Source: Salinivirgaceae bacterium
GTDB lineage: Bacteria > Bacteroidota > Bacteroidia > Bacteroidales > SZUA-534
Direction of reading: 5' to 3'
Assembly (NCBI GenBank): GCA_027858735.1
Contig: JAQICC010000093.1
Coordinates: forward strand, 1-43,101
Length of the DNA: 43,101 nt
How positions within the stretch are numbered: the first letter of the stretch is position 1; the number at the start of each line of letters is the position of its first letter. The position numbers and the translations under genes are program-made. Of this stretch, positions 3,423 to 36,440 are shown one piece after another. Below the pieces are notes generated by a model, which was not told the origin of the DNA, did no database searches, and worked only from the letters and a program-made list of their open reading frames with translations.

Positions 3423-3447
3423 ACGTTAATAATTTATAATAAGGTCG

Positions 3448-3522: not shown

Positions 3523-3535
3523 AATCTTTATTTTT

Positions 3536-3593
3536 ATTCAAACGGCAGGTAACCCGAAAGTTACCTTGCCAATTTGAATGGGTAAATTTACCC
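3536..3593. repeat. Strong hairpin followed by perfect palindrome
   Basis: ATTCAAA, GGCA and GGTAAC pair with GTTACC, TGCC and TTTGAAT around a CCGAAA loop, giving about 17 base pairs with small bulges (3536-3579). It is followed directly by the perfect 14-base palindrome GGGTAAATTTACCC (3580-3593). It could be a bidirectional transcription barrier, a small structured RNA or a protein-binding site. No U-tract follows on either strand, which argues against an ordinary intrinsic terminator. Confidence 0.6.
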
Positions 3594-3793
3594 CGTATAA
3601 ACCAAAATCAATTTGCATTAATATTTTTTAGGAACACTAATTTTAATGATGCAACTTATTTTTACTGATTAACTTAATATATCAGCCTATTATGTTATCG
3701 GTATTCTATCAATCCAAATATTATTGCGATGCATGTTAAAATAGTTTTCCAATACAATGTTCTACTTGCATCGCTTTTCTTGTTCTTATAATA

Positions 3794-3837
3794 CCTAGGG
3801 CTTTGCCCTAGGCTATTGAATTTCGCCCCTTCAGGGC
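3794..3837. repeat. Bacteroidota-type palindromic repeat (CCTAGGGC)
   Basis: CCTAGGGC-TTT-GCCCTAGG is a perfect 8 bp stem. GGCTATTGAA and a second small hairpin, GCCC-CTTCA-GGGC, follow. Elements of this layout are a common intergenic repeat class in Bacteroidota. Two diverged relatives in this window lie at 8474-8506 and 14245-14285. It sits about 100 bp downstream of the pump stop codon and may act as a 3' structure. Confidence 0.65.
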
Positions 3838-3913
3838 TTGGCAAATACTTACATTCTAAATACTATTTTTTTTATCCGTCTTATCTATTTCATCAATGTT
3901 CTATTTATTTTAA

Positions 3914-3953
3914 ATCAGCGTTAATCCGCCATATCAGCGTCATCTGTGTTCCA
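3914..3953 (-). repeat. Short dispersed repeat at pump gene 3' end
   Basis: The segment ATCAGCGTTAATCCGCC...GTCATCTGTGTTCCAA resembles those at 14299-14340 and 29458-29498, which share the ATCCGTGTTCC end. Here the repeat runs into the pump gene, so the final codons (EHR and stop) are encoded by repeat sequence. The likeness to the other two copies is clear but imperfect. Confidence 0.55.
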
Positions 3954-6900: not shown

Positions 6901-6987
6901 ATACGAACTCACACCAAACAGGGTTATCATTAGGAATACTACCAGCGTAAAGTGGTAATTTTTTATGGCTATTTTTGGAATGTTCAT
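3940..6987 (-). CDS. RND efflux pump, inner-membrane permease
   Basis: Proton-driven inner-membrane pump of the AcrB/HAE-1-like RND superfamily that extrudes substrates through the adaptor and outer-membrane channel encoded upstream in the operon. At 1015 residues it is the usual size. It shows the duplicated plan: one N-terminal membrane helix, a large periplasmic loop, a membrane block with GMLVDNSIAIVEN (about 392-404), then a second half starting near residue 500. In that fourth helix the pair usually seen as DD in HAE-1 pumps is DN, so proton relay may differ or lean on one Asp. The C-terminal EHR and stop come from a dispersed repeat. Substrate range cannot be read from sequence; drugs, bile-like amphiphiles or solvents are typical. 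Confidence 0.95.
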   Translation of the reverse strand: MNIPKIAIKNYHFTLVVFLMITLFGVSSYLNMPKSEDPYTEFHTTTILVINPGSTPEDMETLIVNPIEETLNEIDGVKNITTSIQNGVSFSFVEFLIGEDYDKKHQEVIQKVNEVRDDLPSTIYNIDIAQPSVLNVAIYQMAFVSTGASAYEMKKSAEDLKKKLEKVGGVRKVDLHAEQELEVQVKCDLERLASYNLSLNRLIAILQSENLSIPGGSIDLGNKKFNIQTSGLYKSINEIKQTVINAGENGIVLLGDVAEVSFGYKNPDIKARYNGREALWLTIEQKKGINIYKVSERIDEIVAEFVKDVPESIQVETVMRQADGVQKRVNGFFMNFLQGILLVGAIILFALGVRSALIVMIAIPVSVFAGIGLIDLAGYGIQQMSIAGLIIALGMLVDNSIAIVENIYRYINKGLKPIDAAVKGASKIGNALVSSTLTTVLAFAPMLLMANDVGNFIRSMVLIVIFSLIASLVVALCLTPFVASRMLKKSNKEPKQGMLNRFIEKYYSRWLNGALNRPKLIVVSSVIIFFGSLSLMPLIGVSFFPKADKSQLMVNVAGIQGTNLKNTEEALVYVEGVLENIPEVEKIASTAGEGNPQVYYNMLKPNPSTNSGQAYAILSEVKPERMNEIVAELRMVFATYPAAKIEVKEFIQGPPVDAPVQIRLFSENLEDLKIAAGQVEDVFNEVSGIININNPFSVDKTDLHVKIDREKAGRLGVSLIDIDRMVRTAVNGLQVSSYQDKLGDKYNIVIKSKDDNSSDLSWIEKVYVPTAIGSQIKLSQVADIQMVKGIKRIDHYDFDRYVSILADVDEGIQSIDKATKDVIAKLNNTELAGSVVYSVGGEQESRDESFGGLGTSLLIALLGIFAVLVLQFSSFKQPLIIFTAIPLSITGSFITLLITGHSFSFMAFVGLTSLMGIVINSSIILVDYANQLIKEGMKVRAAVFEASKTRFTPILLTTVTTVGGLLPLTLFGGTMWAPMGWAIIGGLIFSTLLTLILVPVLYQSLSNDVKELEHR

Positions 6988-7032
6988 TTTCTTGATATCT
7001 TATGTAATAATTCTATTCTTATATTCCCCCTC

Positions 7033-7061
7033 TGCCCTTCGGGCATCTCCCCCAGGGGAGA
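7033..7061. repeat. Double palindrome in pump-adaptor gap
   Basis: TGCCC-TTC-GGGCA is followed at once by CTCCCC-CA-GGGGAG. Both are tight GC-rich hairpins in an otherwise AT-rich gap between the adaptor stop and the pump start. It resembles REP-type intergenic repeats. As the genes are co-directional, it may modulate RNA stability or read-through into the pump gene. Confidence 0.6.
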
Positions 7062-7148
7062 ACTAGCAACATGGCTAATGTGGAAGTGTCAACAATGGAA
7101 TTTTATTATTAACCTCTATTTTTTCCTATACTTAAAAATACTTTCAGT

Positions 7149-8234
7149 TTACTTCAATGATGCTAATTGAACCTTATCTAAATTCTTCAATTCTTTTTGT
7201 TTCTTGGTAATAACCTGCAAATTAGCATCGGCTAAAGGCATGTTTACATAAACAAATTCGTTGTGTAAAAACAATGCTTCCGATTCTTTTTTAACGGCTC
7301 TACCTGTTTTATTTTCGTACACAAAAAAACTCACCGTATTTCCAAATCCTTCCTGAATAGCATCCACAGGAATTTTATAACAGTTTATCTCATGTGAAGG
7401 AATAAGTTCGCCTCGGGCAAAAAAACCTGGTTTTAGTTCTAATCCTGTATTTTCCAGTGAAAGCTCCACCTCATACAAACCGGTAGTTTGCTCGGGCGCA
7501 TTGGCAATTTTAGAAATACTTGCGAATACATTTCTATTTGGATAAGCGTCGGTAACAATTTCAGCTTGATTACCCATTTGTAGCTTTACCACATTTTTAT
7601 CGGAAACGCCTACGTTCATTTTCCATGTATCTTCGTCAGAAGCAAAGTAGAATACTGGTATACCAGGACCTGTAATTTCATTCTCTTCCATAAACTTCAT
7701 CATAATAATTCCGTTACTCGGTGCAGTAATGGTTGAAAATTTAAGATTGTATTGTGCAATATTTAAAGTTGCTTGCGCTACATCAAGTGCCGATGTTGCA
7801 TTTTGCAATTGCTCTAAAGTTGTTACGGTATCATTGTAAAGATTCTCAACACGTTTGAAATCACGTTGTGCTTTTTCAAGACCGACTTTTGCTTGCAAAA
7901 CTTGTTGGTTAATTTCGTTTAAATCGAGCTGTGCCAACACATCTCCAGCTTTAACCTTATCGCCTTCATCTACATTTAGCTTTTTAATAATACCACCTGT
8001 TTTAAAACTCAAACGACTCTCTTTGTTGGCACGTATTAGTCCCGACACGTGTATAGGCAAGGCTACACTTTCTCTAAAAACTTTTGTTGCCTCAGCTGGA
8101 ATAGCAAGATCTTTTTTTTCGGCTGTTGCTAGGGTTTGCGTGCAACTTTGAAATGATACCGCTAATGCTAAAAGGCTTACGGCAAGTGCGGATATCCTAA
8201 TTGTATTCATTTGTTTTTTCTTAAAGGTTTTCAT
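7149..8234 (-). CDS. RND efflux periplasmic adaptor (MFP) lipoprotein
   Basis: Membrane-fusion/adaptor protein bridging the RND pump and the TolC-like channel. It starts at an ATG giving MKTFKKKQMNTIRIS; an internal Met at residue 9 would equally preserve the export signal. The signal ends in a lipobox, AVSFQSC, predicting a lipid-anchored periplasmic protein. A lipoyl/barrel-sandwich half motif follows (SFKTGGIIKKLNVDEGDKVKAGDVLAQLDLNEI), then a coiled-coil hairpin (about 110-160) and the second lipoyl half (ITAPSNGIIM), then beta-barrel and membrane-proximal domains. At 361 residues it is typical. It is the second gene of the minus-strand operon, 161 bp before the pump and 293 bp after the channel gene. 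Confidence 0.94.
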   Translation of the reverse strand: MKTFKKKQMNTIRISALAVSLLALAVSFQSCTQTLATAEKKDLAIPAEATKVFRESVALPIHVSGLIRANKESRLSFKTGGIIKKLNVDEGDKVKAGDVLAQLDLNEINQQVLQAKVGLEKAQRDFKRVENLYNDTVTTLEQLQNATSALDVAQATLNIAQYNLKFSTITAPSNGIIMMKFMEENEITGPGIPVFYFASDEDTWKMNVGVSDKNVVKLQMGNQAEIVTDAYPNRNVFASISKIANAPEQTTGLYEVELSLENTGLELKPGFFARGELIPSHEINCYKIPVDAIQEGFGNTVSFFVYENKTGRAVKKESEALFLHNEFVYVNMPLADANLQVITKKQKELKNLDKVQLASLK

Positions 8235-8372
8235 GTCAATTTGGTTTTAAGGATTAATAACGATGCAAATATTCATGATATATTTTAATGGCAAAGGGTG
8301 AAATGGTGTGAGCATGCATAATTTGAGAGTGAACCTGTTATGTTTGTTTCTTAAGTTTTTTTTAATTTTTAA

Positions 8373-8506
8373 AGCGAAGCAGGCGCTTCGCTGTCCTGAT
8401 TGCAATTGCATTTATGAATGGAACTCGTAGCGCCTGCTGCGAGAATTAATAATAATGAACTTTGCTCATAGTTGCCCTGAGCTAATGCTTTTAATCCTTT
8501 CAGGGC
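8373..8506. repeat. REP-like palindromes between channel and adaptor genes
   Basis: Three self-complementary features sit in the 293 bp gap of the efflux operon. AGCGAAG-CAGGCG-CTTCGCT is a local hairpin (8373-8392). GCAGGCGCT (8379-8387) can instead pair with AGCGCCTGC (8429-8437). GCCCTGA (8474-8480) pairs with TCAGGGC (8500-8506) just after the channel stop codon. The last belongs to the same palindrome class as 3794-3837. The first two pairings are mutually exclusive, so the transcript can fold in two ways. Confidence 0.6.
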
Positions 8507-8527
8507 TTATTTATTTAAAAAATTAAT

Positions 8528-9889
8528 TTAATTTATCGTCATCATACTACTCTTCTCAAGTCTTGCAATGCTAATCCACAGCTTGTATTTAATGGTAATA
8601 AAGTCCGATTCGGCTTCAACCATATTATTACGAGCATCAAGTAGTTCAACCAATGCGGCTTCTCCCTGACGGTAGCGTTTTTCAAGAATTCGATATACTT
8701 CCTTGGCTTCAGCATCTCTGTTGGTGGCTACTTCAATATTTTGTTTTAGCTCTTGTACATCTAAAAAATCACGCTTAATTTCAAGCATTATTTGTTGCGT
8801 AGCCACTAGTTTTTGGGTCTCCGATTTTTCCATTTCTATGATGGCTTGTTGTCGCTTATTTCGGTTTATATTGCCATTAAACAGTTTCCAATTCATTACC
8901 AACGATCCCATAACATAATCATTGTCAGATACATTTGAGAACTCACTACCCTGCAAACCTGCATCTAGAGCCAGAGCAAGCATTGGAATATTTTCAGCTG
9001 TATTTAGATCCGCTAATAGGGAGTAAATCTCCGTTTGAGAATCGAGCTGTTTTAATTCCTCACGTAGTTTTAAAGCACTTTCTGTTAATGAATTGATATC
9101 GTGACTAAGCATTTCCGATTCGGATGAACCTACCTTAACTTCATCATTTAGATTCCGATTTATTAAAAAATTAAAATAGCTTTTAGCCATCTCTCTATTC
9201 TTTTGCACCGTAGTTTCAAATAACTTGACCTGACTTACATCGCTCTTTGCACGAAGCACCGCATCTTTTGTTATCATATTATTATCAAATAGTTTCTCAG
9301 TTACACGGTAATTTTCATTAACCACTTCTTTAGTACGACCAACCAGCGCAGTTAATTGCACCGTTTGCAAATAGTTATAATAGGCCTCCTTTATTTGAAA
9401 AGTCAACTCGCGTTTAAAAATTTCCAAATCGCTCTCCGACATGGATAGTTGCTGCTGGGCAATCTGTTTATTCAAACCTAATGAGCGAGAATACAAAGGC
9501 TGTATTAGCGACAATTTCGCATCATATTCCTGCTCGCGCATAAAAGCAATCTGCTCATTTTCAAGCTGAGGGAAGCCGCCAACCTGACCTTGCTGCTCAA
9601 GCATTTGGTTAAGTGTTTTATAAACCGGATTCATTAAATCTCCAATGGGAAAATCAATTGTTCGACCTCCTCTTGCTAAAGAATAGCGGGTTTGTAGACT
9701 TGCCTCAGGGAGAAATAATCCTTTGGCAATTTTTAATGAATACTTGGCTTTTTTTAATGATAGTACGTTTTGTTGTAGTGCTAAATTATTATCTAGCCCA
9801 ATTTTTACGTATTCACTTAAAACATTAGTCTGAGCTTTTAAACTAAAGATAGAGGTTAAAGAAATTAGTAATAGAATTAGTGTTTTCAT
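8528..9889 (-). CDS. TolC-like outer-membrane efflux channel
   Basis: Outer-membrane factor that completes the tripartite RND exporter. It has a signal peptide (ILLLISLTSIFSLKAQ) and two OEP repeats of long amphipathic, coiled-coil-rich helices, recognised by the opening LSEYVKIGLDNNLALQQNVLSLKKA. The second repeat contains LNTAENIPMLALALDAGLQGSEF and ends ALVELLDARNNMVEAESDFITIKYKLWISIARLEK, the typical OEP C-terminus. The length of 453 residues is normal. There is no lipobox at the signal end, so anchoring is through the barrel alone. It is the first gene of the operon, so the promoter should lie within 9890-10103, where I see no clean -33/-7 pair. Confidence 0.93.
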   Translation of the reverse strand: MKTLILLLISLTSIFSLKAQTNVLSEYVKIGLDNNLALQQNVLSLKKAKYSLKIAKGLFLPEASLQTRYSLARGGRTIDFPIGDLMNPVYKTLNQMLEQQGQVGGFPQLENEQIAFMREQEYDAKLSLIQPLYSRSLGLNKQIAQQQLSMSESDLEIFKRELTFQIKEAYYNYLQTVQLTALVGRTKEVVNENYRVTEKLFDNNMITKDAVLRAKSDVSQVKLFETTVQKNREMAKSYFNFLINRNLNDEVKVGSSESEMLSHDINSLTESALKLREELKQLDSQTEIYSLLADLNTAENIPMLALALDAGLQGSEFSNVSDNDYVMGSLVMNWKLFNGNINRNKRQQAIIEMEKSETQKLVATQQIMLEIKRDFLDVQELKQNIEVATNRDAEAKEVYRILEKRYRQGEAALVELLDARNNMVEAESDFITIKYKLWISIARLEKSSMMTIN

Positions 9890-10370
9890 GGCTTTGATTA
9901 AAAGTTAATAACACTGCAAATTTGGACAACCTGATTTTGTTGTGAAATAAAAAAGGAGTGAATGGAACATTTTTTAGGATGAACAGGTGCAAAGATTGCA
10001 ATCAACAGTCCTCAGTTCCCAACCTAACATCTTCATTATTTGCAAATATTAGAACAGCATTTTTTGAGCAAAATCGAATTCAATATTAATACTAAAAATA
10101 AACGGTTCTACTACCAATTTTGTGGGTAAGGTTAAAATTATATAAGTTTTTTAGTTTTCAAATATGAAGTTCTCAGTCCTCAGTAAACTTATTGACGTAC
10201 TGAGAACTGCCTACTACATCTCACTTAAAAAATACACTTTATAAAATTATTTTCCACTAAATTCGTAGTAATATCAAATAAACAAAGGTGTAAAAAGTAA
10301 ATCCAGATAACTGAAGACTGAAAAGTGAAGACTTAAAAATAGTATCTTCGTTTTACTAAAATTTACAATT
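9890..10370. other. Divergent intergenic region hosting a MITE-like element
   Basis: This 481 bp gap between the efflux operon and the LysE gene has no ORF. About 170 bases of it are the inserted element at 10104-10275. Outside the element, AGTCCTCAGTT (10007-10017) and AACTGAAGACT (10309-10319) form a second, outer inverted repeat with one mismatch, carrying the same word as the element's core. The LysE promoter may include TATCTTCG near 10343, a near match to the -7 box TAnnTTTG. Confidence 0.6.
10104..10275 (+). mobile_element. MITE-like element, copy 1 (8 bp target duplication)
   Basis: A 172 bp element bounded by the direct repeat AAATAAAC (10096-10103 and 10276-10283). Its ends are imperfect terminal inverted repeats of about 22 bp that share TACTACSAATTTWGTGG (10109-10125 against 10254-10270); 17 of 22 positions match. 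The centre has the hairpin AGTTCTCAGT...ACTGAGAACT. Copies 2 and 3 lie at 32026-32214 and 38286-38472. Copies 1 and 2 differ at only 3 of their first 70 bases. There is no coding capacity, so it must be mobilised in trans. An 8 bp duplication is known for several IS families, including ISL3, IS66 and IS1595; I cannot assign the family. Confidence 0.85.
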
Positions 10371-10961
10371 ATGGCTTTTGATTCTATTGGTTTATTAATA
10401 TTTGCTTTGATAACCTTATTAACTCCAGGCCCCAATAACTATTTGCTTTTTGCGCATGGCAAAAACTATGGTTTTAATGATTCTTACAAGTTAATGGCAG
10501 GTATATTTAGTGGTTTTGTTGTGCTGCTATTTATTTCGGGCTATGGTATTTCTGAAATAATTATGCGGAGTCCAACAGTTGGGTTAATTCTAAAAATTAT
10601 AAGCTCTGCTTGGTTAATATATCTTGCTTTTATGCTAAGCAAATTAAATACCATGTCATCATCTGATTCTCATTCAAAAATTGGATACATACATGGTTTG
10701 CTTATGCAATTCGTTAATCCGAAAGCATGGATAGTTTCCATTAGTGGTGCAAGTGCATTTATGCCTCAAGGTGACAATATCCACTTGAATGTTTTTGTAT
10801 TTGCCTTTACCTATGCTGGCATTGGAATCCCATGCATGGCTACTTGGGTATCGTTTGGCGGTTTAATTTCAAAATGGCTAAAATCTGAGAAAACAAACAG
10901 AATAATCGCTTACTCTATTTTTACACTTATGATGGTTAGCGTTGTAATGGTTTGGTTGTAG
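10371..10961 (+). CDS. LysE/RhtB-family exporter
   Basis: Inner-membrane amino-acid or metabolite exporter. The N-terminal signature LLIFALITLLTPGPNNYLLFAHGKNYGF is the hallmark LysE/RhtB start, with the TPGPN motif. About six hydrophobic helices cover the protein, and the second family motif MQFVNPKAWIVSISG is near residues 112-126. The length of 196 residues is slightly shorter than the usual 200-210 but appears complete at both ends. It is transcribed away from the efflux operon, with the MITE-like element between the two promoters, and lies 131 bp upstream of the kinase gene, so it may or may not join that transcript. Substrate is unknown; RhtB relatives export threonine, homoserine lactones or leucine. 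Confidence 0.92.
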   Translation: MAFDSIGLLIFALITLLTPGPNNYLLFAHGKNYGFNDSYKLMAGIFSGFVVLLFISGYGISEIIMRSPTVGLILKIISSAWLIYLAFMLSKLNTMSSSDSHSKIGYIHGLLMQFVNPKAWIVSISGASAFMPQGDNIHLNVFVFAFTYAGIGIPCMATWVSFGGLISKWLKSEKTNRIIAYSIFTLMMVSVVMVWL

Positions 10962-10991
10962 AAGTAACAATGCTTTAATAATATAATAAGT

Positions 10992-11051
10992 AAATGATTT
11001 AATAGAATTAAGATTATTCTCACATTCAAGCATTTATTCATTAAATCATTT
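10992..11051. repeat. Perfect 12 bp inverted repeat before kinase gene
   Basis: AAATGATTTAAT (10992-11003) and ATTAAATCATTT (11040-11051) are perfect reverse complements separated by 36 AT-rich bases; the downstream arm ends about 40 bases before the kinase ATG. AATGCTT/AAGCATT at 10969 and 11027 can also pair. This could be an operator for a regulator of the kinase-permease unit or a weak terminator for the LysE gene. Confidence 0.5.
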
Positions 11052-11092
11052 TAATATATTCGGTTTCAATAACCAATAAAACTTAAAATCAA

Positions 11093-11896
11093 ATGGACCT
11101 TATAGCCCTTACTACCTGCTGTGTAGATTATTATCCTCAATTAGATAAGTCATTTATGGGTGGAAATACTTTGAACTTGGCATCAACGTGGAAAAAAACA
11201 GCCCCAACGGCAAATATTTCAGTAATTACCTGTTTAGGGAAAGATAAAAATGGAGAAACCATCAGCAATTTCTTGAATAAAATAGGCATAAAAACTTCTC
11301 GAGTTTACACAAAAGAGGGCACCACAGCCTGCAACCAACTTCGTGTAGATGAACATGGCGAACGTTTTGGCATTGAAGGTACATGGAACGGGGGCGTTTA
11401 TGAAGACTTTTTACTTTCAGAAAAAGACTGGGCATTTGTCGCTACGCAAGATATAGTAGCCATACCGGCGAATAATCCTAATTATTCTGAAATGGTAAAG
11501 CGCAAAACCAACGGCCAAATACTATCGGTTGATTTTATGGATGTAGAAAATAATATGCCTATTGAAGATACCATTGCCAAAACTGATATTGCTTTTGTTG
11601 CCGCCCGCACTGAACTTATTAATAAGTACGAAATGCTAGCAAATAAAACAAGCAAGCTATTGGTAATTACTTCGGGAGCAGACGGTAGCTACGCATTTTT
11701 TAATGGTAACAAATACCATCAACCCGCCATTGAAGTGCACAAGGTAGTTGACACTACCGGTTGCGGTGATGCCTACCAGGGAGCATTTGCATTAACTTAT
11801 TACAACACCAATGATATTCAGGAATCCATGAAAGCCGGAGCTATTGCTGCCAGTGATATTCTGCAGCATTACGGTGGAGTTGGAAAAATAGATTAA
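11093..11896 (+). CDS. PfkB-family sugar kinase, FrlD-like
   Basis: Ribokinase-fold carbohydrate kinase. The opening (CCVDYYPQLDKSFMGGNTLNLA) and overall length of 267 closely resemble fructoselysine 6-kinase FrlD of enteric bacteria (family knowledge). The C-terminal PfkB signature is DTTGCGDAYQGAF (about 220-232), with Asp226 as the expected catalytic base. The usual Ala of GAGD is Cys here. The gene is followed after only 2 bases by a GntP-type permease, so the two are almost certainly one uptake-phosphorylation unit. No FrlB-like deglycase is present in the window, so fructoselysine itself is unproven; another ketose or Amadori compound is possible. Confidence 0.88.
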   Translation: MDLIALTTCCVDYYPQLDKSFMGGNTLNLASTWKKTAPTANISVITCLGKDKNGETISNFLNKIGIKTSRVYTKEGTTACNQLRVDEHGERFGIEGTWNGGVYEDFLLSEKDWAFVATQDIVAIPANNPNYSEMVKRKTNGQILSVDFMDVENNMPIEDTIAKTDIAFVAARTELINKYEMLANKTSKLLVITSGADGSYAFFNGNKYHQPAIEVHKVVDTTGCGDAYQGAFALTYYNTNDIQESMKAGAIAASDILQHYGGVGKID

Positions 11897-11898
11897 TT

Positions 11899-13266
11899 AT
11901 GGCTACATATTACTTGATTTTTATTGTTATTTCTGCTGTTTCTCTTCTTTTATTCCTTGTACTTAAGCTCAAGCTAAATGCCTTTATAGGTCTTTTAATT
12001 ACCGCTATTTATGTGGGTATTCTATCTGGAATGCCTTTGCAAGGTATTTTAAAAAGTATTGAAAAAGGTATGGCCGGCACGCTAGGTTTTGTAGCAATTG
12101 TTGTTGGTTTGGGAGCTATATTTGGACAAATGCTTGAAAGTTCAGGTGGTGCAGAATCAATGGCCAATTATCTTATTAACAAGTTTGGTGTAAAAAATGC
12201 TCCTATAGCAATGACTATAACTGGCTTTATTATTGCAATTCCTGTTTTTCTTGATGTGGGTTTTATTATACTTGTTCCCATTATTTATGCACTTTCTCGC
12301 GATACTGGGAAACCATTATTATATTTCGGCATACCTTTATTAGCAGGGCTTGCTGTAACCCATAGTTTTATTCCTCCAACACCAGGGCCTGTTGCTGTAG
12401 CAAATATTATAAATGTACAACTTGGATGGGTAATACTATTTGGCTTTATATTGGGAGTTCCAACAGCAATAATTGCAGGACCTATTTTTGGTAAATTCAT
12501 TTCAAAGAAAGTTAAGGGTACCATCCCATTTGATTTCCATACAAACATTGAAAACAAAAGCGATAACAAAGCATTGATAAAACCCCGTTTTCGATTAATA
12601 GTTATTTTAATTGGCATACCCCTTTTGCTAATAATTGCAAGTTCGGTTACAAGTCTTCTTGTTGGGCAATCACATTTACCAACTAACTATTTAACAGAAC
12701 TAATAGTATTTCTAGGTCATCCGTTCTGTGCACTTATAATTGCCACACTACTATCAATTTGGTTTCTGGGCATAAAAAGAGGGTTATCAAAACAGCAAAT
12801 TTTAGATTTAAGCACCAAATCGTTAGGTCCTGCCGGAATTATTATTTTAATAACCGGCGCTGGAGGTGTGCTAAAACAAGTTTTAATTGAGAGCAGTATT
12901 GGTGAAATTCTAGCGAATTCATTAGCCGAAAGTGCACTTTCACCCCTACTACTTGCATGGATACTTGCAGCACTTATACGGGTAACTCAAGGATCGGCAA
13001 CTGTTGCCATGATAACTGCTGCTGGAATAATTGCACCGGTAATTGAAACCATAGGAATGGGGGAAATGCAACGTGCATTAGTTGTTATAGCAATTGCATC
13101 AGGCGCAACCATACTTTCGCATGTTAACGATAGCGGATTCTGGCTGGTTGGAAAATATTTCGGCTTAAATGAAAAACAAACGCTTCAATCGTGGACGGCC
13201 ATGGAAACCATAATTGCATTTTGTGGCTTAATATTTTGTTTGATTGCTGGAATGGTTATCAGCTAA
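11899..13266 (+). CDS. GntP-family sugar-acid:H+ symporter
   Basis: Inner-membrane permease of the GntP (gluconate permease) family with about 12-14 hydrophobic segments over 455 residues, a normal length. Family-typical stretches include GMAGTLGFVAIVVGLGAIFGQMLESSGGAE, VFLDVGFIILVPI, HSFIPPTPGPVAVA and IRVTQGSATVAMITAAGI. GntP members take up gluconate, related sugar acids or other hydroxy acids with protons. Its start lies 2 bases after the kinase stop, so the imported substrate is probably what the kinase phosphorylates. At the 3' end it converges on the phosphatase gene, the two stop codons sharing the tetranucleotide CTAA, with no terminator between them. Confidence 0.93.
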   Translation: MATYYLIFIVISAVSLLLFLVLKLKLNAFIGLLITAIYVGILSGMPLQGILKSIEKGMAGTLGFVAIVVGLGAIFGQMLESSGGAESMANYLINKFGVKNAPIAMTITGFIIAIPVFLDVGFIILVPIIYALSRDTGKPLLYFGIPLLAGLAVTHSFIPPTPGPVAVANIINVQLGWVILFGFILGVPTAIIAGPIFGKFISKKVKGTIPFDFHTNIENKSDNKALIKPRFRLIVILIGIPLLLIIASSVTSLLVGQSHLPTNYLTELIVFLGHPFCALIIATLLSIWFLGIKRGLSKQQILDLSTKSLGPAGIIILITGAGGVLKQVLIESSIGEILANSLAESALSPLLLAWILAALIRVTQGSATVAMITAAGIIAPVIETIGMGEMQRALVVIAIASGATILSHVNDSGFWLVGKYFGLNEKQTLQSWTAMETIIAFCGLIFCLIAGMVIS

Positions 13267-14150
13267 GCGTTGCCATATTTAAGATTGAGTTGTTTAACAA
13301 ATTCAGCAATTTTAATACTACTTGCATACACTATACCTTTATGGTTCATAAAGGTTGAATCTGCTTTATTTAATTCCAATTGATTGCCAAAAATATCAGA
13401 AACTATTGCCCCTGCTTCTTTTACAATACAAGCCGAAGCGGCAAAATCCCAAAGACTGCCTCCTCCATTTTCTTTTTTAGGAAATTTAAAATAACAGCTT
13501 GGAGCCTTTTCAACAACCATGCAGGCATTTATAACTGCACCTGAGGTTTTTTCTAATTTTAAACTATTATATCCCAATCTGGTGGCAAAAATTTCTAATT
13601 CCTCAACTAGTTTCTCAAAGTTTGGGTTTTTAATAAAACTGCGGTCGGTGCTAAATGTAAAAGCATCGTCGGATTGTGAAGTAATTTTAAATTCATTAGT
13701 ATTCACATAGGCTCCTTCACCTTTTACTGCCGAATACATTTTTTTTGTAACTGGATTATAAACTACACCAATAACTGAATCACCATTTTTTGCCACTAAA
13801 GCAATCGACACTGCATAGCCTTCATGTCCTTCAATGAATGATAATGTTCCATCAAGTGGATCGATGCACCAGAAATAGTCTTTTTCTAAACGACTCGAAT
13901 CATCAACACTTTCTTCGGTTAAAAGACCTAAATCAAATTCATCAATTGTAGGTTGCAGCTCGTTTAATATAATTTCTTGAGCTTTTAAATCTACTTCAGT
14001 AAACACTTGCGAGGCTAAAGTATCGCCTCCCTCCTTTTTATTTACTTTAAATTCTTTCAGCGATTGCGAGGCAATGTATTGACCTGCTTTTCTTGCTGCG
14101 CTTATAGCTGATTGTGAAAGCTTATTAAGTTCTATTGTTGATAGTTTCAT
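13263..14150 (-). CDS. Inositol-monophosphatase-family phosphatase (CysQ/IMPase-like)
   Basis: Mg2+-dependent, Li+-sensitive-type phosphatase fold, 295 residues. The metal site is visible: the acidic pair in LLTEESVDDS, then CIDPLDGTLSFIEGHEGYAVSIALV (DPLDGT near 95-100), and the C-terminal LWDFAASACIVKEAGA, matching the WDxAA motif. Substrates in the family include inositol phosphates, 3'-phosphoadenosine 5'-phosphate and sugar bisphosphates. The extended form with a separate EE site leans towards CysQ-like 3'(2'),5'-bisphosphate nucleotidases, but I would not name it. It is convergent with the GntP permease, and a role in the same sugar pathway is only a guess. Confidence 0.88.
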   Translation of the reverse strand: MKLSTIELNKLSQSAISAARKAGQYIASQSLKEFKVNKKEGGDTLASQVFTEVDLKAQEIILNELQPTIDEFDLGLLTEESVDDSSRLEKDYFWCIDPLDGTLSFIEGHEGYAVSIALVAKNGDSVIGVVYNPVTKKMYSAVKGEGAYVNTNEFKITSQSDDAFTFSTDRSFIKNPNFEKLVEELEIFATRLGYNSLKLEKTSGAVINACMVVEKAPSCYFKFPKKENGGGSLWDFAASACIVKEAGAIVSDIFGNQLELNKADSTFMNHKGIVYASSIKIAEFVKQLNLKYGNA

Positions 14151-14244
14151 TTTTTCAATTCAAAAGATTACATTTTGTCGTACGGAACAAAATCATTTCA
14201 AATATACGTTGCTACTTACGACGATTCCTTGTTTATACTCCTTA

Positions 14245-14285
14245 CCCAGAGTTTCACCCTGGGCTATTTAAATCAAAGGTCTTCA
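14245..14285. repeat. Palindromic repeat, diverged relative
   Basis: CCCAGAG-TTTCA-CCCTGGG, followed by GCTATTTAAA and AAGG-TCTTCAG-CCTT, repeats the layout of 3794-3837: a GC-rich hairpin, then GGCTATT, then a second small hairpin. It sits between the phosphatase start and the stop of the downstream-facing kinase gene. Confidence 0.5.
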
Positions 14286-14298
14286 GCCTTTCTTTTAA

Positions 14299-14340
14299 TA
14301 TCAGTGATAATCTGTTTTATCCGTTAAATCCGTGTTCCTA
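14299..14340 (-). repeat. Short dispersed repeat supplying a stop codon
   Basis: ATCAGTGATAATCTG...ATCCGTTAAATCCGTGTTCCTA is closely related to the segment at 29458-29498 and less so to 3914-3953. Its final CTA is the complement of the TAG stop of the kinase gene ending at 14338. The same ATCCGTGTTCCTA end occurs near 29488. Confidence 0.6.
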
Positions 14341-15318
14341 TTTTTCAATATTCAATTCTTCAACAACCTCACGTGCCAAGCGCTCACTATAGCTATTAAT
14401 TTTCCAATGGCCGAGGCTCCATCCTTTTAAGAACCTATGAAAATCAGTCCATGCCAAGGGATACAACTCGCGCCATTCTTTTTCAATTTCATCTGCGTCT
14501 ACATTAATACTGTGCACTTTCAATGCTTCGCGAAGTGCTTTAAAATACATTTCAAGCAGCTCATCTTCATGTTTATCGCAATCATCTTCATACAAACAGC
14601 TTCCAATAAAATAGGCGACATCCTTCATGCCTATTCCTCCCCCCACATACTGAAAATCTACGGCAGCTACTTTTCCTTTTTTGCCAAAACAGAAATTGGC
14701 CAATTTAGCATCACCGTGCACAAAAGTCTGGTATTTGGCTGAATTTAGCCTATTATCAATAACCGATGCTGCTTCTTTCAAAGCCTTATCCTCCAACACT
14801 TCCAATTCATCAGGACGTGTATCCAAATGCCAATAGGTTCCAACCGGCCACAAACCTTCAGGTTTTTCACCTAAAAATGTTGCATGAAAATTCGCCAACC
14901 ATCTGAGGCAATTCTCCATATCATCCATCGATACCTGAGTCTTCCTTCCTGAAAAACCTGCTGCATCTAAATCTTCCAAAACCATTAACACCTCATCACC
15001 TTGAGTGGCTTCTGCTAAACATTTAGGCCCCCTGCAAGTCTCATCGCATTTCTGGCTATACTTATTGTACCATGCCATTTCAACTTCATATGATTTTATT
15101 TTGCGCTTATGCGATTTATCTGTATTCCAACCCCTTGGATGTTTACCTTGGTCGGGCAATCTTACATGTTTGGCTACAATACTATCTATAGAACTACCTA
15201 TTGGCTGTAAACGTACAATTTTGCCGTAGCCACTCCAAAGGTTTTGAATAACCTCAACCTCCTGTAATTGTGTTGCTCCTGTTGCTTTAAGGGTTGTATT
15301 TTTAAAATGCTGATTCAT
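14338..15318 (-). CDS. CHK-like small-molecule phosphotransferase
   Basis: Kinase of the aminoglycoside-phosphotransferase/choline-kinase fold, in the CHK (DUF1679/ecdysteroid kinase-like) branch. The catalytic loop [14 protein letters not shown] (about 198-211) gives the HGDxxxxN motif, and [26 protein letters not shown] gives the metal-binding Asp. An N-lobe Lys/Glu region lies around 50-80 ([14 protein letters not shown]). The length of 326 residues fits. Such enzymes phosphorylate small hydroxyl compounds; bacterial substrates are mostly unknown. It lies upstream of the phosphatase on the same strand with a 187 bp gap that holds a palindromic repeat, so a kinase/phosphatase partnership is possible but unproven. 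Confidence 0.82.
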
Positions 15319-23649: not shown

Positions 23650-24070
23650 TCAAACCTGTTTTATATTGAGCTTACAAAAGTAATAATTATTGATCATGAC
23701 AAGCATCCTTTGTTATTGTTTGCTGTAATTTGCATTTTGCCGAGAAAACCAAATAAAAAAAATCTATCAAGCTATCGGAATAATAATTTGAGTTCCATGT
23801 TTAAGTATCTGGTTAACATAGTTTTAATAAAATTATCCAGCCTTATACAAAGTGGCAAAATAGTTTTCACTGCTTAGAACCTTTCTAAATTACTATGTAA
23901 TATAAAAAATAACCCATTGTATTTAACTCATTTTCAGGCACCAATATCCACAAACCATTTATCAACACCATAGTGCCTGATTTGAATATCAACTAATATG
24001 CTAATTTTGCCTGATATAAAATTTACCGCATACACGAACTTATTTATAAACTTAGACCAAACTTTGCATT
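23650..24070. other. Divergent intergenic region, znuA and giant T9SS gene
   Basis: The 421 bp region must hold promoters for both divergent genes. Near znuA there is AATAATTATT (23682-23691) and TGATCA. TCAGGCAC (23934-23941) pairs with GTGCCTGA (23973-23980) in an 8 bp perfect inverted repeat, about 90 bases before the giant gene. I find no full -33/-7 pair and no ORF. Confidence 0.5.
23682..23691. promoter_or_regulatory. Possible Zur/Fur-type operator upstream of znuA
   Basis: AATAATTATT is a perfect 10-base palindrome about 33 bases upstream of the znuA ATG, in a context (GTAATAATTATTGAT) reminiscent of Fur-superfamily boxes. The AT-rich setting makes chance palindromes common, so this is only a pointer. 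Confidence 0.25.
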
Positions 24071-27000
24071 ATGAAACAAATGCTTACACTGCTGCTTATG
24101 CTTTTTGCATTAGCGTCATTTACCCAAACCGTTATCACCAGGAGTGGTACTATTACTACAAGCGAAACTTGGAGCGCCGATACTATAAAAGTTACTGGCG
24201 ATATTACGATCCCTGATGGGATAACTTTAAGTATAAATCCAGGTACCTACGTTGAAGTTCAAGGTTATTACAGAATAAATATCCAAGGTCGAATTTTGGC
24301 CCAAGGTACTGCCAATAATCGAATTACCTTTACAGCAAAAGATTCCGTTTTAACCTCTAATACCGGTGGTTGGAATGGACTCAAACTTAAAAGCATTGCA
24401 GTTACGAACGACTCCTCAAAAATTGAGTATTGTACTTTTAAATATGGCAACTCATATGGCCCACTTTGGGACGATAGATTTGGTGGTGCTATTCTAATGT
24501 TTCGAGCCTCGAAAGTTAGGGTGACCAACAACTTCATTACAAAAAACAGAATGGCTGAATTAAGCACTATCGACATTAGCGAATCGTCACCCTTAGTGGC
24601 AGGAAATGTAATTGTAGATAATAATTCACAAGGTATTTTATGTTCCACAGGTTCATCTGCCAAACTTTTTAACAACACTATAGCCAATAACACCAAAAAA
24701 GGTTTAGTAAACTATCAATCGAACCCAACAGTTACCAATTGCATAATTTATGGCAATAGCTCAAATCTTGAAAACACAGGTTCAAGCCCTGTTATCACTT
24801 ATTGTAATATTGGCAATGCAACTGTTTCGGGGACTGGAAACATTAACCAAGATCCAAAATTTATTGGAACAGGAAAAGCCCCCTATGGTTTGCTGGCAAA
24901 CTCGCCTTGCATCAATACTGGCGATCCTTCGCATTCATTGAGTAATGTGTTTTATGAATATGACATTATTGGAAACACTCGCATCTATATCAAAAACACT
25001 GACAATAAAATAGATATGGGAGCTTATGAGTTTAATCCAGACTTAACAAGCTACATAGCAACTCCAATTAAAAGTGAATTTTACGCTAAAGCAGGCAGTC
25101 CGTTTGAATTAGATTTAGACATTCTTTCTTATCCGTCAAGCTATACGGTAAGCTTAAATAATGCACCAACCGGAATGACTGTGGTTAATGACACTATACG
25201 TTGGACACCGTCTGACTCCCACACAAACAAATCATTCAGCGTATCCATAATAATTAATAATGGCAATGAAATAAAAACAAAAAACATAACGCTTATTGTA
25301 TTAGACATAAATTCTTATGGCGAACTACCTGACGAAGATATAATTTGGGATGCAGACACGATTAAAGTTATTGGTAATTTAACGCTTAACAATACGCGTA
25401 CGCTAACCATTAAACCTGGCGTTGTGGTGCAATTCTTAGGGCATTACAGCTTAAATATTCAAGGCAGGCTATTAGCAAAAGGCACAAAAACCGATACGAT
25501 AACCTTTATATCAAAAGATAAAACTTTAACAAAAACAAGTGGAGGTTGGAACGGAATAAGATTTGACAACACCGCTTCAACAAATGACTCTACCATAATA
25601 CAATATGTGAAATTTAGTTATGGTAACGCATACACAAATAATGACGAAAATTCTTATTCAAATATTGATGGAGGAGCAATTTATATCAACAATTCAAGAA
25701 AGATACGAATTTCCGATTGCCTTTTCGAGAAAAACAAATGCCTAATAAGCTTTGGAAACGGCAGTGGTATTTATGTCCGACTATCTAAAACTAAAATTAC
25801 AAACAATACCTTTAAAAATAACTATAGTGATTATGGAGGCTCTGGAATATACTGTCTTCAAGATACAAGCTACGTCTTTAATAACCGTTTTTACTTGAAT
25901 GAATCAAGAGTAGGAGGATGTGCTATTGGATTAAATAGCTCACGAGCACTGGTAGTAAACAATGTACTATACAATAACACAAGCTCGCGCCTTGACGTTG
26001 ATGGAGCCATTTTCATAGATGGTTCAAATGACACTTTAATTAACAATACTATTGCTAACAATACTGGTAATGGCATTTGTATTCGTGGCAATTCTTATTC
26101 ACCTGTAATAACAAACTGCCTGAGTGCTAATAATACACTTAATACAAGCTCAACAAACTTTAAAAACGGAGGCTCACCAATTATTTCAAATTCATATTTA
26201 AATATTGTTGACGCCAATGAACTATTTGACCATGGTTTTGTTGATTTGGGAAACAATAATTTTCAATTAAAAGGCACCTCGCCGTTTATTAACAAGGGTA
26301 AAGCAAGCACAGTATTTAACAACCATAACATAACAACCGATTGCGATGGTAATTCACGAATAGCACATGGCACTATTGATATTGGAGCCTTTGAATACCA
26401 CGGACCAGAATTTGTTTTTGTAGATAAAACCTGCAAAATTAACGAAAACCCAAACAATGATATTTTAATAGACTCTGTTCAGGTACATTACTACGGCAAT
26501 TCAGGAACCCCTACTCTTAAACTATTAAGTGGCAACGAGGACAATAGTATAACCTTTAACTATGTTACCGGAATGTTATGGGTTAATGATTCAACTAAAT
26601 TCAACTATGAACTAAACGATAGCTTGGTTTTTAAATTTGCTACCAGCGTTGACACCTATAAAGACACAGCCTTATTAATTGTAAAATTAAATGATATTAA
26701 TGACCCTCCAACTGCTCCGGTTTATGTTGAAATTAAAATAGAAGAAAATCAAAAGCTTAATGCTGTAATTGATACTATAAAAGTTTTTGATGAGGACGGA
26801 AATGATGAATTAGTATATTCATTTAAATATGACAATAATGCTGTAGGTATTGTTAATTCAACAGGTGTGTTGTACGTAAAAGACCCCAACGCTTTCGATT
26901 TTGAAAAATATTCACAATACTTACTACCTGAAATTATTGTTTCAGATGGAGAATATGAGGTAAATATTATACCTGAAATTATATTAATAGATCTTAATGA

Positions 27001-29347
27001 AGCTCCTACTATTCAAAGTTTTACAGCCAATATAAATGAAAATACACCGAATGGCTCTCTTATTGAACATCTTAATATATTTGACTCCGATAATGATACC
27101 CTAACTTTAGAAATAATATCGGGCAATACTAATGATGCATTCATCATAAATAACACCGATACAACACTTAGGGTTAATAATAGTGACGCTCTTAATTTTG
27201 AAGAAACACCTGTATTCAACCTGAAAATTACAGTAAGCGATGGTGAATTAACCGACACCGCAAACATTACAATCAACTTAAAAAACCTACATGGCATTAA
27301 CCCACTCCAAGGTTCAGGAAGATCAAATGCGGTTAGTTTCACCATTAACGATACGGTTTACATTGGATTAGGTAATAATGCTGATACCGTTCTTAATGAT
27401 TTTTGGAGCTACAATTCGACTGATGACATATGGAAAAAAATAGCCTCTTTCCCAGGAAAAGCAAGAGCGGGAGCTGTTGCATTTGTGATTAACGGTAAAG
27501 CCTATGTAGGCTCGGGTTACAATGGAGGTTACCAAGCGGACTCATACTTCAACGATTTTTATGAATATAATCCAATTACCAATACCTGGACAAAAATTGC
27601 AGACTTTGCTGGTGTAGCACGTCATAACGCTGTAGCCTTTGCTATTGGCGATACGGCCTACATGGGTACCGGACTTGCCAGCAATGGTTCAACCAAAGAC
27701 TTTTGGAAATACTCACCTTCCGCAAACGTATGGACAGCTTTAAATGGTTTTCCGGGCTATGAACGTACATCAGCGGTTGCCTTTGTTGTTAAGGGTAAAG
27801 GTTATATTTCAGGAGGTGTTGATATAAATGATTCTGGCACACGAGTAATAAGTGATGTGCAGGAATATGACCCACTTACCGGATTATGGACTGAGAAAAT
27901 ATTTGCCGACGGTTTAAATCTTACCTTTAATAGTGCCACAGCTATAGCAGCAGGAGATAAGGCTTTTATTTGTTATGGAAATTTCAAAAAAGTAGTGAGT
28001 TACCAACCATCGACCAATAACGTTGAAGATTTAGGAGATATTTTAAACTTAGGTGAGGATCGATCTTATCCGATTTCTTTTATGCTAAACGATACAGCCT
28101 ACTTTGGTTTAGGTTATTATTACGAAAATACTTGGGATGAAGTTTATTCAAATGAAATAGTTGCCATTGATTTACCCATTTCATTTGCACCTTCAGATAT
28201 TACGCTATCGGTAAATACTATTGAAGAAAACCAACCCACAAACACCCTAGTTGGTACTATAACAGCAAGTGACAGAAATACAGCCGACACCCACACCTTT
28301 GAGTTGGCAAGTGGTTCAGGCGACACCGACAATAGTTTATTTAGCATTACTGATAATAAATTATTGGCAACACCCCTTAATTTTGAAGAAAAAGAGACCT
28401 ATTCTATCAGAATTAAAGCGAATGATAACGATGGCAATACCTTTGAAAAAGCCTTAGAAGTGATTGTATTAAACGTTAACGATGCACCTTCAGATATTGT
28501 ACTTGGCATTAATACTTATGCTGAAAATAATACTATTGGAGATATTGCCTTAAAAAGTAATTTGGCAACCTCTGACGGCGATATGAATGATAAGCACACC
28601 TACACTTTTACAGCTGGCACAAACGACAATGAAAGCTTTAGTATAGACAATGGCTACATTTACCCAAACACTGTATTTAACTATGAATACAAAAACACCT
28701 ACGCCATTGAAGTTACCTCAACCGATAGTTCTGGGGCATCAATAACAAAAAGCTTTGATATTTATATTGAAAATGTAAATGAAAAACCCGATAGCGTTAC
28801 CATCAGTAACAATGCGGCATATACAAGCGATAACATTGGAACCATTGTGGGCACATTTATTGCCTTAGATGTTGACCAAGACGATACCCATACTTTTGAG
28901 TTTACATCGAATGACAAAACCTCGATTGACGATGCCAAATTTTACACCATTGATGCCTATAATTTAGTAGTAAATGCACCAATAACCACCGAAAAAGCAT
29001 TTCATGAGCTTTTAATTAAAGTTACCGATGCTGGCGGTTTAGACACAACTTCAGTGCTAGCCATAATAGTTGAAGAAGGTGTCGGCATTAAATTACTTCA
29101 AGAAGCCTCAACAGTTTTCAAAATCTACCCTAACCCAACCAACGGTTTATTAAACATTGAACAACTTAATACTAACGTTAATATTAAACAAATTAAGCTT
29201 AAGGATAGTAACGGCGGAATGATTAAATCAGTTGATGGAGTTTCCGGTTTTAATCAGCTTAATCTTTCAGAATACAAAGCTGGTATTTACTTTATTGTTC
29301 TTGAAACCAATGATAAATTGTATTATAAAAAAGTTATTTTGGAATAA
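24071..29347 (+). CDS. Giant T9SS-exported beta-helix/cadherin/Kelch protein
   Basis: 1758-residue secreted or cell-surface protein. Order: signal peptide (MLTLLLMLFALASFTQT); right-handed beta-helix 1 (about 25-320); Ig-like domain (about 330-410); beta-helix 2 (about 415-770), whose opening repeats helix 1 (ADTIKVTGDITI against ADTIKVIGNLTL, both reaching NDSS/NDST); cadherin-like repeats (about 780-1075) with IEENQ/INENTPNGS and Asp-rich DEDGN/DSDND calcium-type motifs; a Kelch propeller (about 1080-1360) with repeated AFVINGKAYVGSG-type blades; more cadherin-like repeats (about 1370-1670); and a T9SS type A sorting domain (about 1680-1758; IYPNPTNGLLNIE ... YYKKVILE). The likely role is adhesion, glycan binding or degradation at the surface; the beta-helices could be catalytic, but no lyase motif stands out. 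Confidence 0.9.
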   Translation: MKQMLTLLLMLFALASFTQTVITRSGTITTSETWSADTIKVTGDITIPDGITLSINPGTYVEVQGYYRINIQGRILAQGTANNRITFTAKDSVLTSNTGGWNGLKLKSIAVTNDSSKIEYCTFKYGNSYGPLWDDRFGGAILMFRASKVRVTNNFITKNRMAELSTIDISESSPLVAGNVIVDNNSQGILCSTGSSAKLFNNTIANNTKKGLVNYQSNPTVTNCIIYGNSSNLENTGSSPVITYCNIGNATVSGTGNINQDPKFIGTGKAPYGLLANSPCINTGDPSHSLSNVFYEYDIIGNTRIYIKNTDNKIDMGAYEFNPDLTSYIATPIKSEFYAKAGSPFELDLDILSYPSSYTVSLNNAPTGMTVVNDTIRWTPSDSHTNKSFSVSIIINNGNEIKTKNITLIVLDINSYGELPDEDIIWDADTIKVIGNLTLNNTRTLTIKPGVVVQFLGHYSLNIQGRLLAKGTKTDTITFISKDKTLTKTSGGWNGIRFDNTASTNDSTIIQYVKFSYGNAYTNNDENSYSNIDGGAIYINNSRKIRISDCLFEKNKCLISFGNGSGIYVRLSKTKITNNTFKNNYSDYGGSGIYCLQDTSYVFNNRFYLNESRVGGCAIGLNSSRALVVNNVLYNNTSSRLDVDGAIFIDGSNDTLINNTIANNTGNGICIRGNSYSPVITNCLSANNTLNTSSTNFKNGGSPIISNSYLNIVDANELFDHGFVDLGNNNFQLKGTSPFINKGKASTVFNNHNITTDCDGNSRIAHGTIDIGAFEYHGPEFVFVDKTCKINENPNNDILIDSVQVHYYGNSGTPTLKLLSGNEDNSITFNYVTGMLWVNDSTKFNYELNDSLVFKFATSVDTYKDTALLIVKLNDINDPPTAPVYVEIKIEENQKLNAVIDTIKVFDEDGNDELVYSFKYDNNAVGIVNSTGVLYVKDPNAFDFEKYSQYLLPEIIVSDGEYEVNIIPEIILIDLNEAPTIQSFTANINENTPNGSLIEHLNIFDSDNDTLTLEIISGNTNDAFIINNTDTTLRVNNSDALNFEETPVFNLKITVSDGELTDTANITINLKNLHGINPLQGSGRSNAVSFTINDTVYIGLGNNADTVLNDFWSYNSTDDIWKKIASFPGKARAGAVAFVINGKAYVGSGYNGGYQADSYFNDFYEYNPITNTWTKIADFAGVARHNAVAFAIGDTAYMGTGLASNGSTKDFWKYSPSANVWTALNGFPGYERTSAVAFVVKGKGYISGGVDINDSGTRVISDVQEYDPLTGLWTEKIFADGLNLTFNSATAIAAGDKAFICYGNFKKVVSYQPSTNNVEDLGDILNLGEDRSYPISFMLNDTAYFGLGYYYENTWDEVYSNEIVAIDLPISFAPSDITLSVNTIEENQPTNTLVGTITASDRNTADTHTFELASGSGDTDNSLFSITDNKLLATPLNFEEKETYSIRIKANDNDGNTFEKALEVIVLNVNDAPSDIVLGINTYAENNTIGDIALKSNLATSDGDMNDKHTYTFTAGTNDNESFSIDNGYIYPNTVFNYEYKNTYAIEVTSTDSSGASITKSFDIYIENVNEKPDSVTISNNAAYTSDNIGTIVGTFIALDVDQDDTHTFEFTSNDKTSIDDAKFYTIDAYNLVVNAPITTEKAFHELLIKVTDAGGLDTTSVLAIIVEEGVGIKLLQEASTVFKIYPNPTNGLLNIEQLNTNVNIKQIKLKDSNGGMIKSVDGVSGFNQLNLSEYKAGIYFIVLETNDKLYYKKVILE

Positions 29348-29380: not shown

Positions 29381-29413
29381 CTCTGTGTTATAGTTTTTTT
29401 TTGTAACACAGAG
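29381..29413 (+). terminator. Inverted repeat after giant T9SS gene
   Basis: CTCTGTGTTA pairs perfectly with TAACACAGAG around a T-rich loop, 34 bases after the stop codon; flanking ACTCCGTG and CACAAAGGAG extend the symmetry imperfectly. The CTCTGTGTTA/AACACAGAG words recur a little downstream. This is a repeat type seen between Bacteroidota genes; it could terminate transcription but lacks a trailing T-run. Confidence 0.45.
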
Positions 29414-29457
29414 TTTCACAAAGGAGACACAAAGTTTCACAGAGTAAAAAATATAAT

Positions 29458-34799: not shown

Positions 34800-36440
34800 C
34801 TACTCCATTGCCACCCAAGCCATTAAATAAACCAATGATGCTTGCCAGTTAATACAAATTTCGTTGTGCGAATAACTGCCTTCTTCATCAACCCAATCGG
34901 TAGCTGTATGGCCGCCACCTACAATATAACCCGGCCAAGGATTTTTAATCCCATCAGCGCCACATCTTCTATCATGCGGAAACATCGGCGGATTAACACC
35001 TAAACCTGTAACATAAGAGCGACCATAATAATTACGTCCGAAAATATGCGCCACAATACTTTCTGCAGCTTCCTTATATTTTTTATCTGGATTCAATTTT
35101 GAGGCCACATAAAGATTCGAAGCTAAACGAGCAATAGTACCGTTACATCCCCACTCATACAAAGCTGAAGGACGACCATAAACATCGCTTTTGGTATGGC
35201 TCACAATAGAATCAGCAATATGGATCATTTCTTGTTTAATTTTAGCGTGCAATTCTTTGTTTCTACCTTTTTTTTCTGACAACAGGTAAGTGTAAACTCC
35301 AAGATTTCTAACATTTCCCCAATCCCAATTGTAATCAACCAATTCTTTAAGATTTGTTAATCGCAATTCAAAATCTTTTAAGTATTGATCCTCTCCTGTT
35401 GTTTCCCACATTTCGGCAGCAGCCCAAATTAAACCACCGGTCTGGTTAGGCTGATATCCGCCAGTATGAAAATCTTTTTGCCCCCAGCGTACATACTCAG
35501 AATTTTCTTGCAAATACTTATAACTACGTTTGGCAGCATCTAAGCACGTTTTAGCATATTCAGCATCATAGGGTTCAAAATTGCGAGCTGCAATAGCCAT
35601 TGCTCCTACAAAATGTGCTGTAGCCGCAGTTCCCCATTCTGTAAAATATCTTTTTGCAGTATCCTCGTTCGGCATTATAAACCCAGAAAAACTTGTACGA
35701 GTTAATTTATGCGATACCCTACCTGAATTATCCGAATACTGCATTTTTAAGAACCAATCGGTTTCCCATTTTAATTCTTCTAAGTAATCTGGCATTTTCT
35801 CGTGCTTATCCGGAATATCAAACGCTGTTTTTTCAAGACCTTTTTGAAAATCTTGCCAGCCCATAAAAAGTTGTCCTAATGAAATTCCTCCATTTACAAT
35901 GTATTTTCCATAGTCACCTGCATCGTGCCAACCGCCGGTACCATCTTTCTGTTTCTCTCCAAATTCAGTAAAATCTAAATAGCCATCGTGCATGTGGCAA
36001 GCTTCCTGCTTAAAAGTATCGGCTTCAAATACACCTTCAACTTCAGTACCGCACCGCCATAAGTAAAATGCACGCATTGAGGTTTTAAAAGCAAAATCGT
36101 AACAATCATCAGCTATTTTAAACACTACCGATTTTAAACCACTTTTTGTTTCAATATAGTAATTCCCAGGAGTATTCAAGGCACTAAAATCCGCAATAAA
36201 TACCGATTGATCTACATCATCTTGAATTTTCGATTCTTTTAACTTGCCTTTAAAAACCACTTTTTTATTCGAGGTGTCAACTACTTTAAAACCATTACAA
36301 AGTCCATTTATAGTAGCTTTTTTTACACTCTCTAATTTATAACCCAAGGTATTTACCTTAATCGAGTTACCATTTTCCTGTCCAAAACCAACTAAAAAAA
36401 AGCAGAAACCCAAAATCAATAATAGTATTTTCTTTTTCAT
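34800..36440 (-). CDS. Glycoside hydrolase family 9 (endoglucanase-type)
   Basis: Secreted GH9 enzyme, 546 residues, with signal peptide ILLLILGFCFFLVGFGQ. An N-terminal CelD_N Ig-like domain (about 22-105; IKVNTLGYKLESVKKATI ... GNYYIETKSG) is followed by the (alpha/alpha)6 catalytic domain. Catalytic features: GGWHDAGDYGKYIVNGG with the nucleophile-side Asps (about 165-180), SYVTGLGVNPPMFPHDRR with the substrate His/Arg, and SHNEICINWQASLVYLMAW with the acid Glu. It has no T9SS sorting domain, so it is expected in the periplasm or released by signal cleavage only. It should hydrolyse beta-1,4-glucan or related oligosaccharides. No SusC/D pair or other CAZyme is adjacent. Confidence 0.92.
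   Translation of the reverse strand: MKKKILLLILGFCFFLVGFGQENGNSIKVNTLGYKLESVKKATINGLCNGFKVVDTSNKKVVFKGKLKESKIQDDVDQSVFIADFSALNTPGNYYIETKSGLKSVVFKIADDCYDFAFKTSMRAFYLWRCGTEVEGVFEADTFKQEACHMHDGYLDFTEFGEKQKDGTGGWHDAGDYGKYIVNGGISLGQLFMGWQDFQKGLEKTAFDIPDKHEKMPDYLEELKWETDWFLKMQYSDNSGRVSHKLTRTSFSGFIMPNEDTAKRYFTEWGTAATAHFVGAMAIAARNFEPYDAEYAKTCLDAAKRSYKYLQENSEYVRWGQKDFHTGGYQPNQTGGLIWAAAEMWETTGEDQYLKDFELRLTNLKELVDYNWDWGNVRNLGVYTYLLSEKKGRNKELHAKIKQEMIHIADSIVSHTKSDVYGRPSALYEWGCNGTIARLASNLYVASKLNPDKKYKEAAESIVAHIFGRNYYGRSYVTGLGVNPPMFPHDRRCGADGIKNPWPGYIVGGGHTATDWVDEEGSYSHNEICINWQASLVYLMAWVAME

Follow-up and report, generated by a model that had tools for sequence, protein, structure and literature searches.

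Two homologous β-helices, cadherin repeats and a Kelch propeller in a probable type IX-secreted surface protein of a Salinivirgaceae bacterium

Background

Many polysaccharide lyases fold as a right-handed β-helix, and N-acetylneuraminate epimerase (NanM) and galactose oxidase fold as a Kelch propeller. The protein described here joins both folds to cadherin repeats and to a sorting tail for the type IX secretion system (T9SS). Some described adhesins share single parts of this plan. In the general model of T9SS export, cargo with a type A C-terminal domain (CTD), the domain recognised by the models PF18962 and TIGR04183, is cleaved by PorU and attached to A-LPS (PMC10202324). Adhesins of the RemA type belong to this type A cargo and, like the protein reported here, combine a signal peptide with a type A CTD for T9SS display, but their binding domains are different (PMC10202324). 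Cadherin-like proteins are known from other bacteria, among them BapP, which has a calcium-dependent adhesive role (PMC12153261), and the RapA lectins, which bind exopolysaccharide (EPS; PMC5061743). BapP and RapA2 have the same cadherin-like β-sandwich repeats with calcium motifs, whereas they come from other phyla, leave the cell by other secretion routes and lack any assembly of β-helix and Kelch.

Here we describe a gene in a window of 43,101 nucleotides, the whole stretch of DNA analysed, from the genome of a Salinivirgaceae bacterium. Its product is a novel arrangement of known modules within an ordinary kind of protein. We think it probable that this is a T9SS-secreted, surface-anchored, modular binding protein, either an adhesin or a binder of matrix or glycan, which is stiffened by calcium and was built by domain shuffling.

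Results and discussion

The open reading frame (24071-29347, + strand; coordinates exact) is intact and encodes 1758 amino acids in the order signal peptide, β-helix 1, Ig-like module, β-helix 2, three cadherin repeats, six-bladed Kelch propeller, three further cadherin repeats and type A T9SS sorting domain:

24071..24124, + strand: signal peptide, aa 1-18 (MKQMLTLLLMLFALASFT), read from the translation, with possible cleavage before Gln19
24128..25054, + strand: β-helix 1, aa 20-328, matched by PF13229 (60.2 bits) and NF041518 (57.8 bits) and homologous to β-helix 2; choice-of-anchor Q end IDMGAYE
25055..25306, + strand: Ig-like (He_PIG-type) spacer, aa 329-412, a weak match to PF05345 (E 0.0027, under the gathering score)
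25307..26410, + strand: β-helix 2, aa 413-780, E 3e-45 against β-helix 1; best choice-of-anchor Q stretch aa 729-776, end IDIGAFE
26408..27295, + strand: cadherin repeats A-C, aa 780-1075, PF00028 matches to B and C, A by alignment with B and C; calcium motifs
27296..28174, + strand: six-bladed Kelch β-propeller, aa 1076-1368, from PF24996, PF24681 and PF01344, AlphaFold2 and Foldseek
28178..29086, + strand: cadherin repeats D-F, aa 1370-1672, PF00028 match to D above the cut-off, E slightly under it, F weak
29123..29344, + strand: T9SS type A C-terminal sorting domain, aa 1685-1758, PF18962 and TIGR04183

An earlier note on this DNA, made from the letters alone, had described two β-helices interleaved with Ig, cadherin and Kelch modules. 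The matches to Pfam and NCBIfam models bear out these domain identities and fall at the places that the note had given. The word interleaved is partly right: the Ig-like module does lie between the helices, and the Kelch module is bracketed by cadherin triplets.

Both ends of the protein point to export. The T9SS sorting domain that the note had placed at the C-terminus is matched above cut-off by two models, PF18962 (43.8 bits, cut-off 27) and TIGR04183 (35.9 bits, cut-off 23). On direct reading of the translation the N-terminus is a signal peptide, a Lys followed by a hydrophobic stretch, and a Gln at +1 would suit the Q-rule of Bacteroidetes (PMC5837995). The same genome encodes the sortase PorU (NF033707, 1211.9 bits against a cut-off of 420) and at least 150 scored T9SS tails, which makes surface export credible. 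The signal peptide would carry the protein to the periplasm and the type A domain would route it through the T9SS, where, under the general model, PorU would remove the tail and attach the protein to the cell surface; we infer that it is displayed there.

The two β-helices are homologous over their full length (BLASTP E 3e-45, 119/363 identities, 33%), with a local alignment score of 422 against a maximum of 107 across 500 shuffles. The internal duplication that the note had proposed at about 100 residues or more is thus real, and larger, since it takes in the whole domain. β-helix 2 is longer by about 60 residues in its middle, consistent with additional rungs. The match to the right-handed β-helix and choice-of-anchor Q models passes both cut-offs (25.9 for PF13229, 25 for NF041518). 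The opening of about 100 residues follows the pattern W, TL.I.PG, V.F.G.Y, G...A.G, I.FT, GW.G, which is conserved across 53 β-helix openings, almost all of which come from genomes of the order other than this one. The likeness of the two openings is therefore partly a family trait, and what counts is that the domains are homologous throughout; the repeated opening is a β-helix module of the whole family, present in many proteins of the order and not private to this one. An AlphaFold2 model of aa 20-780 from the single sequence was of low confidence (pLDDT 36), and a scan of viral contigs for β-helix relatives gave one weak match only.

The Asp-rich repeats for which the note had suggested calcium binding turn out to be cadherin repeats with recognisable calcium-site motifs. 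PF00028 passes its gathering cut-off for the whole protein (86.9 bits); taken singly, repeats C and D lie above the cut-off, B and E under it but with E-values below 0.001, F is weak and A has no match. Repeat A nevertheless aligns with B and C (z about 10), and D aligns with E (z 17.7) and with F (z 13.8). In an alignment of the six repeats, the xEN site and the (F/L)-N/D-(F/Y)-E site are present in A-E, and F is without most calcium motifs. The linkers read DINDPP, DLNEAP, NVNDAP and NVNEKP, with DEDGND and DSDND also found. Judged by these motifs, the repeats likely bind Ca2+. A second protein of the same genome (L041, contig C314 of G000, 3151-8193; 1680 aa) is for the most part a tandem array of cadherin repeats, carries a T9SS tail and is a strong cadherin relative of repeats D-F.

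Of the modules whose structure the note had proposed to predict, the Kelch module gave a confident AlphaFold2 model (pLDDT 79.5, pTM 0.84), built from five aligned rows from four relatives' loci and less confident in its last two blades, while the β-helix region did not. Foldseek returned 711 matches to this model at E <= 0.001, the top ones being Kelch propellers of known structure in the PDB (TM up to 0.85, E 4e-18), and the module is, as modelled, a closed propeller of repeated four-stranded blades.

Since right-handed β-helices and Kelch propellers are also enzyme folds, the main rival reading is a secreted or surface enzyme, in which either the helices would be degenerate lyase- or hydrolase-like domains or the Kelch module a sugar epimerase or oxidase, and the cadherins and Ig-like module would serve as substrate-binding spacers. 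It draws on the partial match of the Kelch module to NANM-type models (PF24996, 87.7 bits, cut-off 45) and on a GH9 cellulase-like gene 5 kb away, which however belongs to a different transcription unit. Membership of the N-acetylneuraminate epimerases (NanM/YjhT) fails on the NCBIfam mutarotase models, which score far under their cut-offs (82.9 against 416, 72.9 against 256 and 69.5 against 243 bits), the best stretch spanning the first blades only. Galactose oxidase fits poorly as well, because a single Cys and next to no His (0.3% each) occur in the module, where that enzyme has a copper site. For the helices, a Pfam search of the protein found no lyase or hydrolase match, a sequence search of the PDB with either helix found no solved relative and no solved enzyme, and conservation in the 53 openings falls mainly on Gly, aromatic and aliphatic positions of a structural kind. 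We consider an enzyme unlikely, and continue to favour the surface-anchored binding protein.

The same genome holds a paralogue of 2329 aa (G000:C116:552-7541). It shares with the window protein, in the same order, the N-terminal β-helix (40% identity) and the C-terminal Kelch module (41%), cadherins and T9SS tail (32%), whereas it has a single β-helix and is without the Ig-like module, the second β-helix and cadherins A-C. Its middle is made of four ASH/Hydin-like units plus MAM-like units, and two cadherins precede the tail. In the β-helix tree, helix 1 pairs with the helix of the paralogue (support 97/84 for the full set and 95/86 without the long rows), which suggests that the helices had duplicated before the gene did. 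The opposite order, with the helices duplicated after the gene, was set aside on this pairing, although a topology with helices 1 and 2 as sisters is not rejected (p 0.42). In the Kelch tree, the window module falls in a clade (100/97) with the paralogue, G355 and Kelch proteins of other families. A separate origin of the two Kelch modules was likewise not adopted; the tree leans that way, but a sister pairing survives the AU test (p 0.20).

Directly behind the paralogue (L039, contig C116 of G000) lie genes for an FN3 protein (7743-9791, 682 aa) and for an outer-membrane-like protein of 576 aa (9793-11523) that has no Pfam match. Homologues of the latter occur in 32 of 197 genomes of the order. 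In a relative from another genome (G222, L137), a stand-alone Kelch-cadherin-T9SS gene adjoins, divergently, a homologue of the 576-aa protein (10535-12274 and 13378-15174); this is a second link between the Kelch-cadherin and 576-aa families. The window protein might then work in a dedicated surface complex with the FN3 and 576-aa proteins, with the Kelch-cadherin module as its recognition part, and the FN3 and 576-aa pair does recur across several families of the order. The window gene, however, has neither of them as a neighbour, the G222 gene is divergent, and two coincidences are all there are; other pairs accompany other giants and not Kelch proteins, a SprB-repeat giant with a T9SS tail lying in between in two checked cases. 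We regard such a complex as improbable. The same low standing attaches to its broader form, in which the window protein and its paralogue would be one recognition device with constant ends (β-helix; Kelch-cadherin-T9SS tail) and an exchangeable centre, partnered with the FN3 and 576-aa proteins.

Elsewhere the two halves of the protein occur apart. The relatives were sought in overlapping samples of roughly a thousand Bacteroidota genomes, with 2-8 candidates scored per genome and a single genome representing the genus. Searches of 60 relatives, of 393 order-level genomes with two queries, and of 395 genomes from the phylum and 295 from the class turned up no further β-helix–Kelch fusion, an absence that is indicative only. 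A scan of contigs with the whole protein as query returned four loci only, all Kelch proteins. Three Kelch relatives (G222, G150 and G375; 399-599 aa) belong to the same Kelch subclade (100/97, with the paralogue and G355) but differ from the window protein in being without β-helices. The G222 protein (599 aa) is like the corresponding part of the window protein, with Kelch, two cadherins and T9SS tail and 45% identity; in G150 the tail follows the Kelch module directly, and the G375 gene is cut by a contig end. Conversely, tandem β-helix giants of the order and class (L117, L119, L121, L122, L126 and L162) have homologous tandem helices with the same opening, to which L121 adds cadherin repeats and L126 a T9SS tail, but they run to as many as 4-5 helices and no Kelch module was detected in them. 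β-helices of the order and class are also joined to Ig-like domains.

The architecture search that the note had called for thus yields partial combinations, and in the sampled Bacteroidota no β-helix–Kelch fusion outside this genome. The note could not match the order as a whole to any characterised protein, and this holds: the sole other β-helix-Kelch-cadherin-T9SS protein found is the paralogue, with its different middle, and a literature search for T9SS, β-helix and Kelch together found no paper. The protein is less special than the note suggests, since every one of its modules, and most of the partial combinations of them, are commonly found in Bacteroidota and the opening is family-wide.

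That the paralogue's middle is entirely different, and that the module order is absent from all other sampled genomes, could also be read as the mark of a fast-evolving surface protein with no one fixed ligand, such as a decoy, an S-layer-like filler or a variable phage-exposed protein, with its modules exchanged either neutrally or through diversifying selection. The intact frame and the conservation of both ends with the paralogue speak against this reading, which we hold to be very improbable.

On the reading that we favour, a binding protein on the cell surface, the cadherin triplets would serve as stalks stiffened by Ca2+, and the six-bladed propeller would be the binding head. The two β-helices would lie at the outer end and offer an elongated, repetitive surface for contact with polysaccharide or protein. 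The gene probably arose by domain shuffling, with a duplication of the β-helix within the gene and a duplication of the gene itself, the paralogue bearing a different central cassette. It illustrates clearly how bacteria with a T9SS build large surface proteins from few shuffled modules: one genome carries a pair of genes that agree at their ends and differ in the middle, and in relatives the halves are separate proteins. The general understanding of T9SS cargo is unchanged by it.

The window gene stands alone, and its neighbours offer no hint of function. Upstream on the - strand is a zinc-type ABC transporter set, and downstream, also on the - strand, are Nudix and MutS-like genes; the GH9 cellulase-like gene, which has a CelD_N domain, lies at 34800-36440. 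The GC content of the gene (35.4%), of its modules (30-39%) and of its neighbours (34-38%) gives no signal of horizontal acquisition of gene or modules. Neither the scans for promoters and terminators nor an upstream match to a Bacteroidetes promoter pattern (23981-24009) rose beyond chance. Behind the gene, at 29407-29440, are short repeats of the CACAGAGTTTCAC type and an inverted pair, CTCTGTGTTA and TAACACAGAG; the motif occurs 3 times in the window against 0.03 expected by chance, and it looks like an interspersed repeat.
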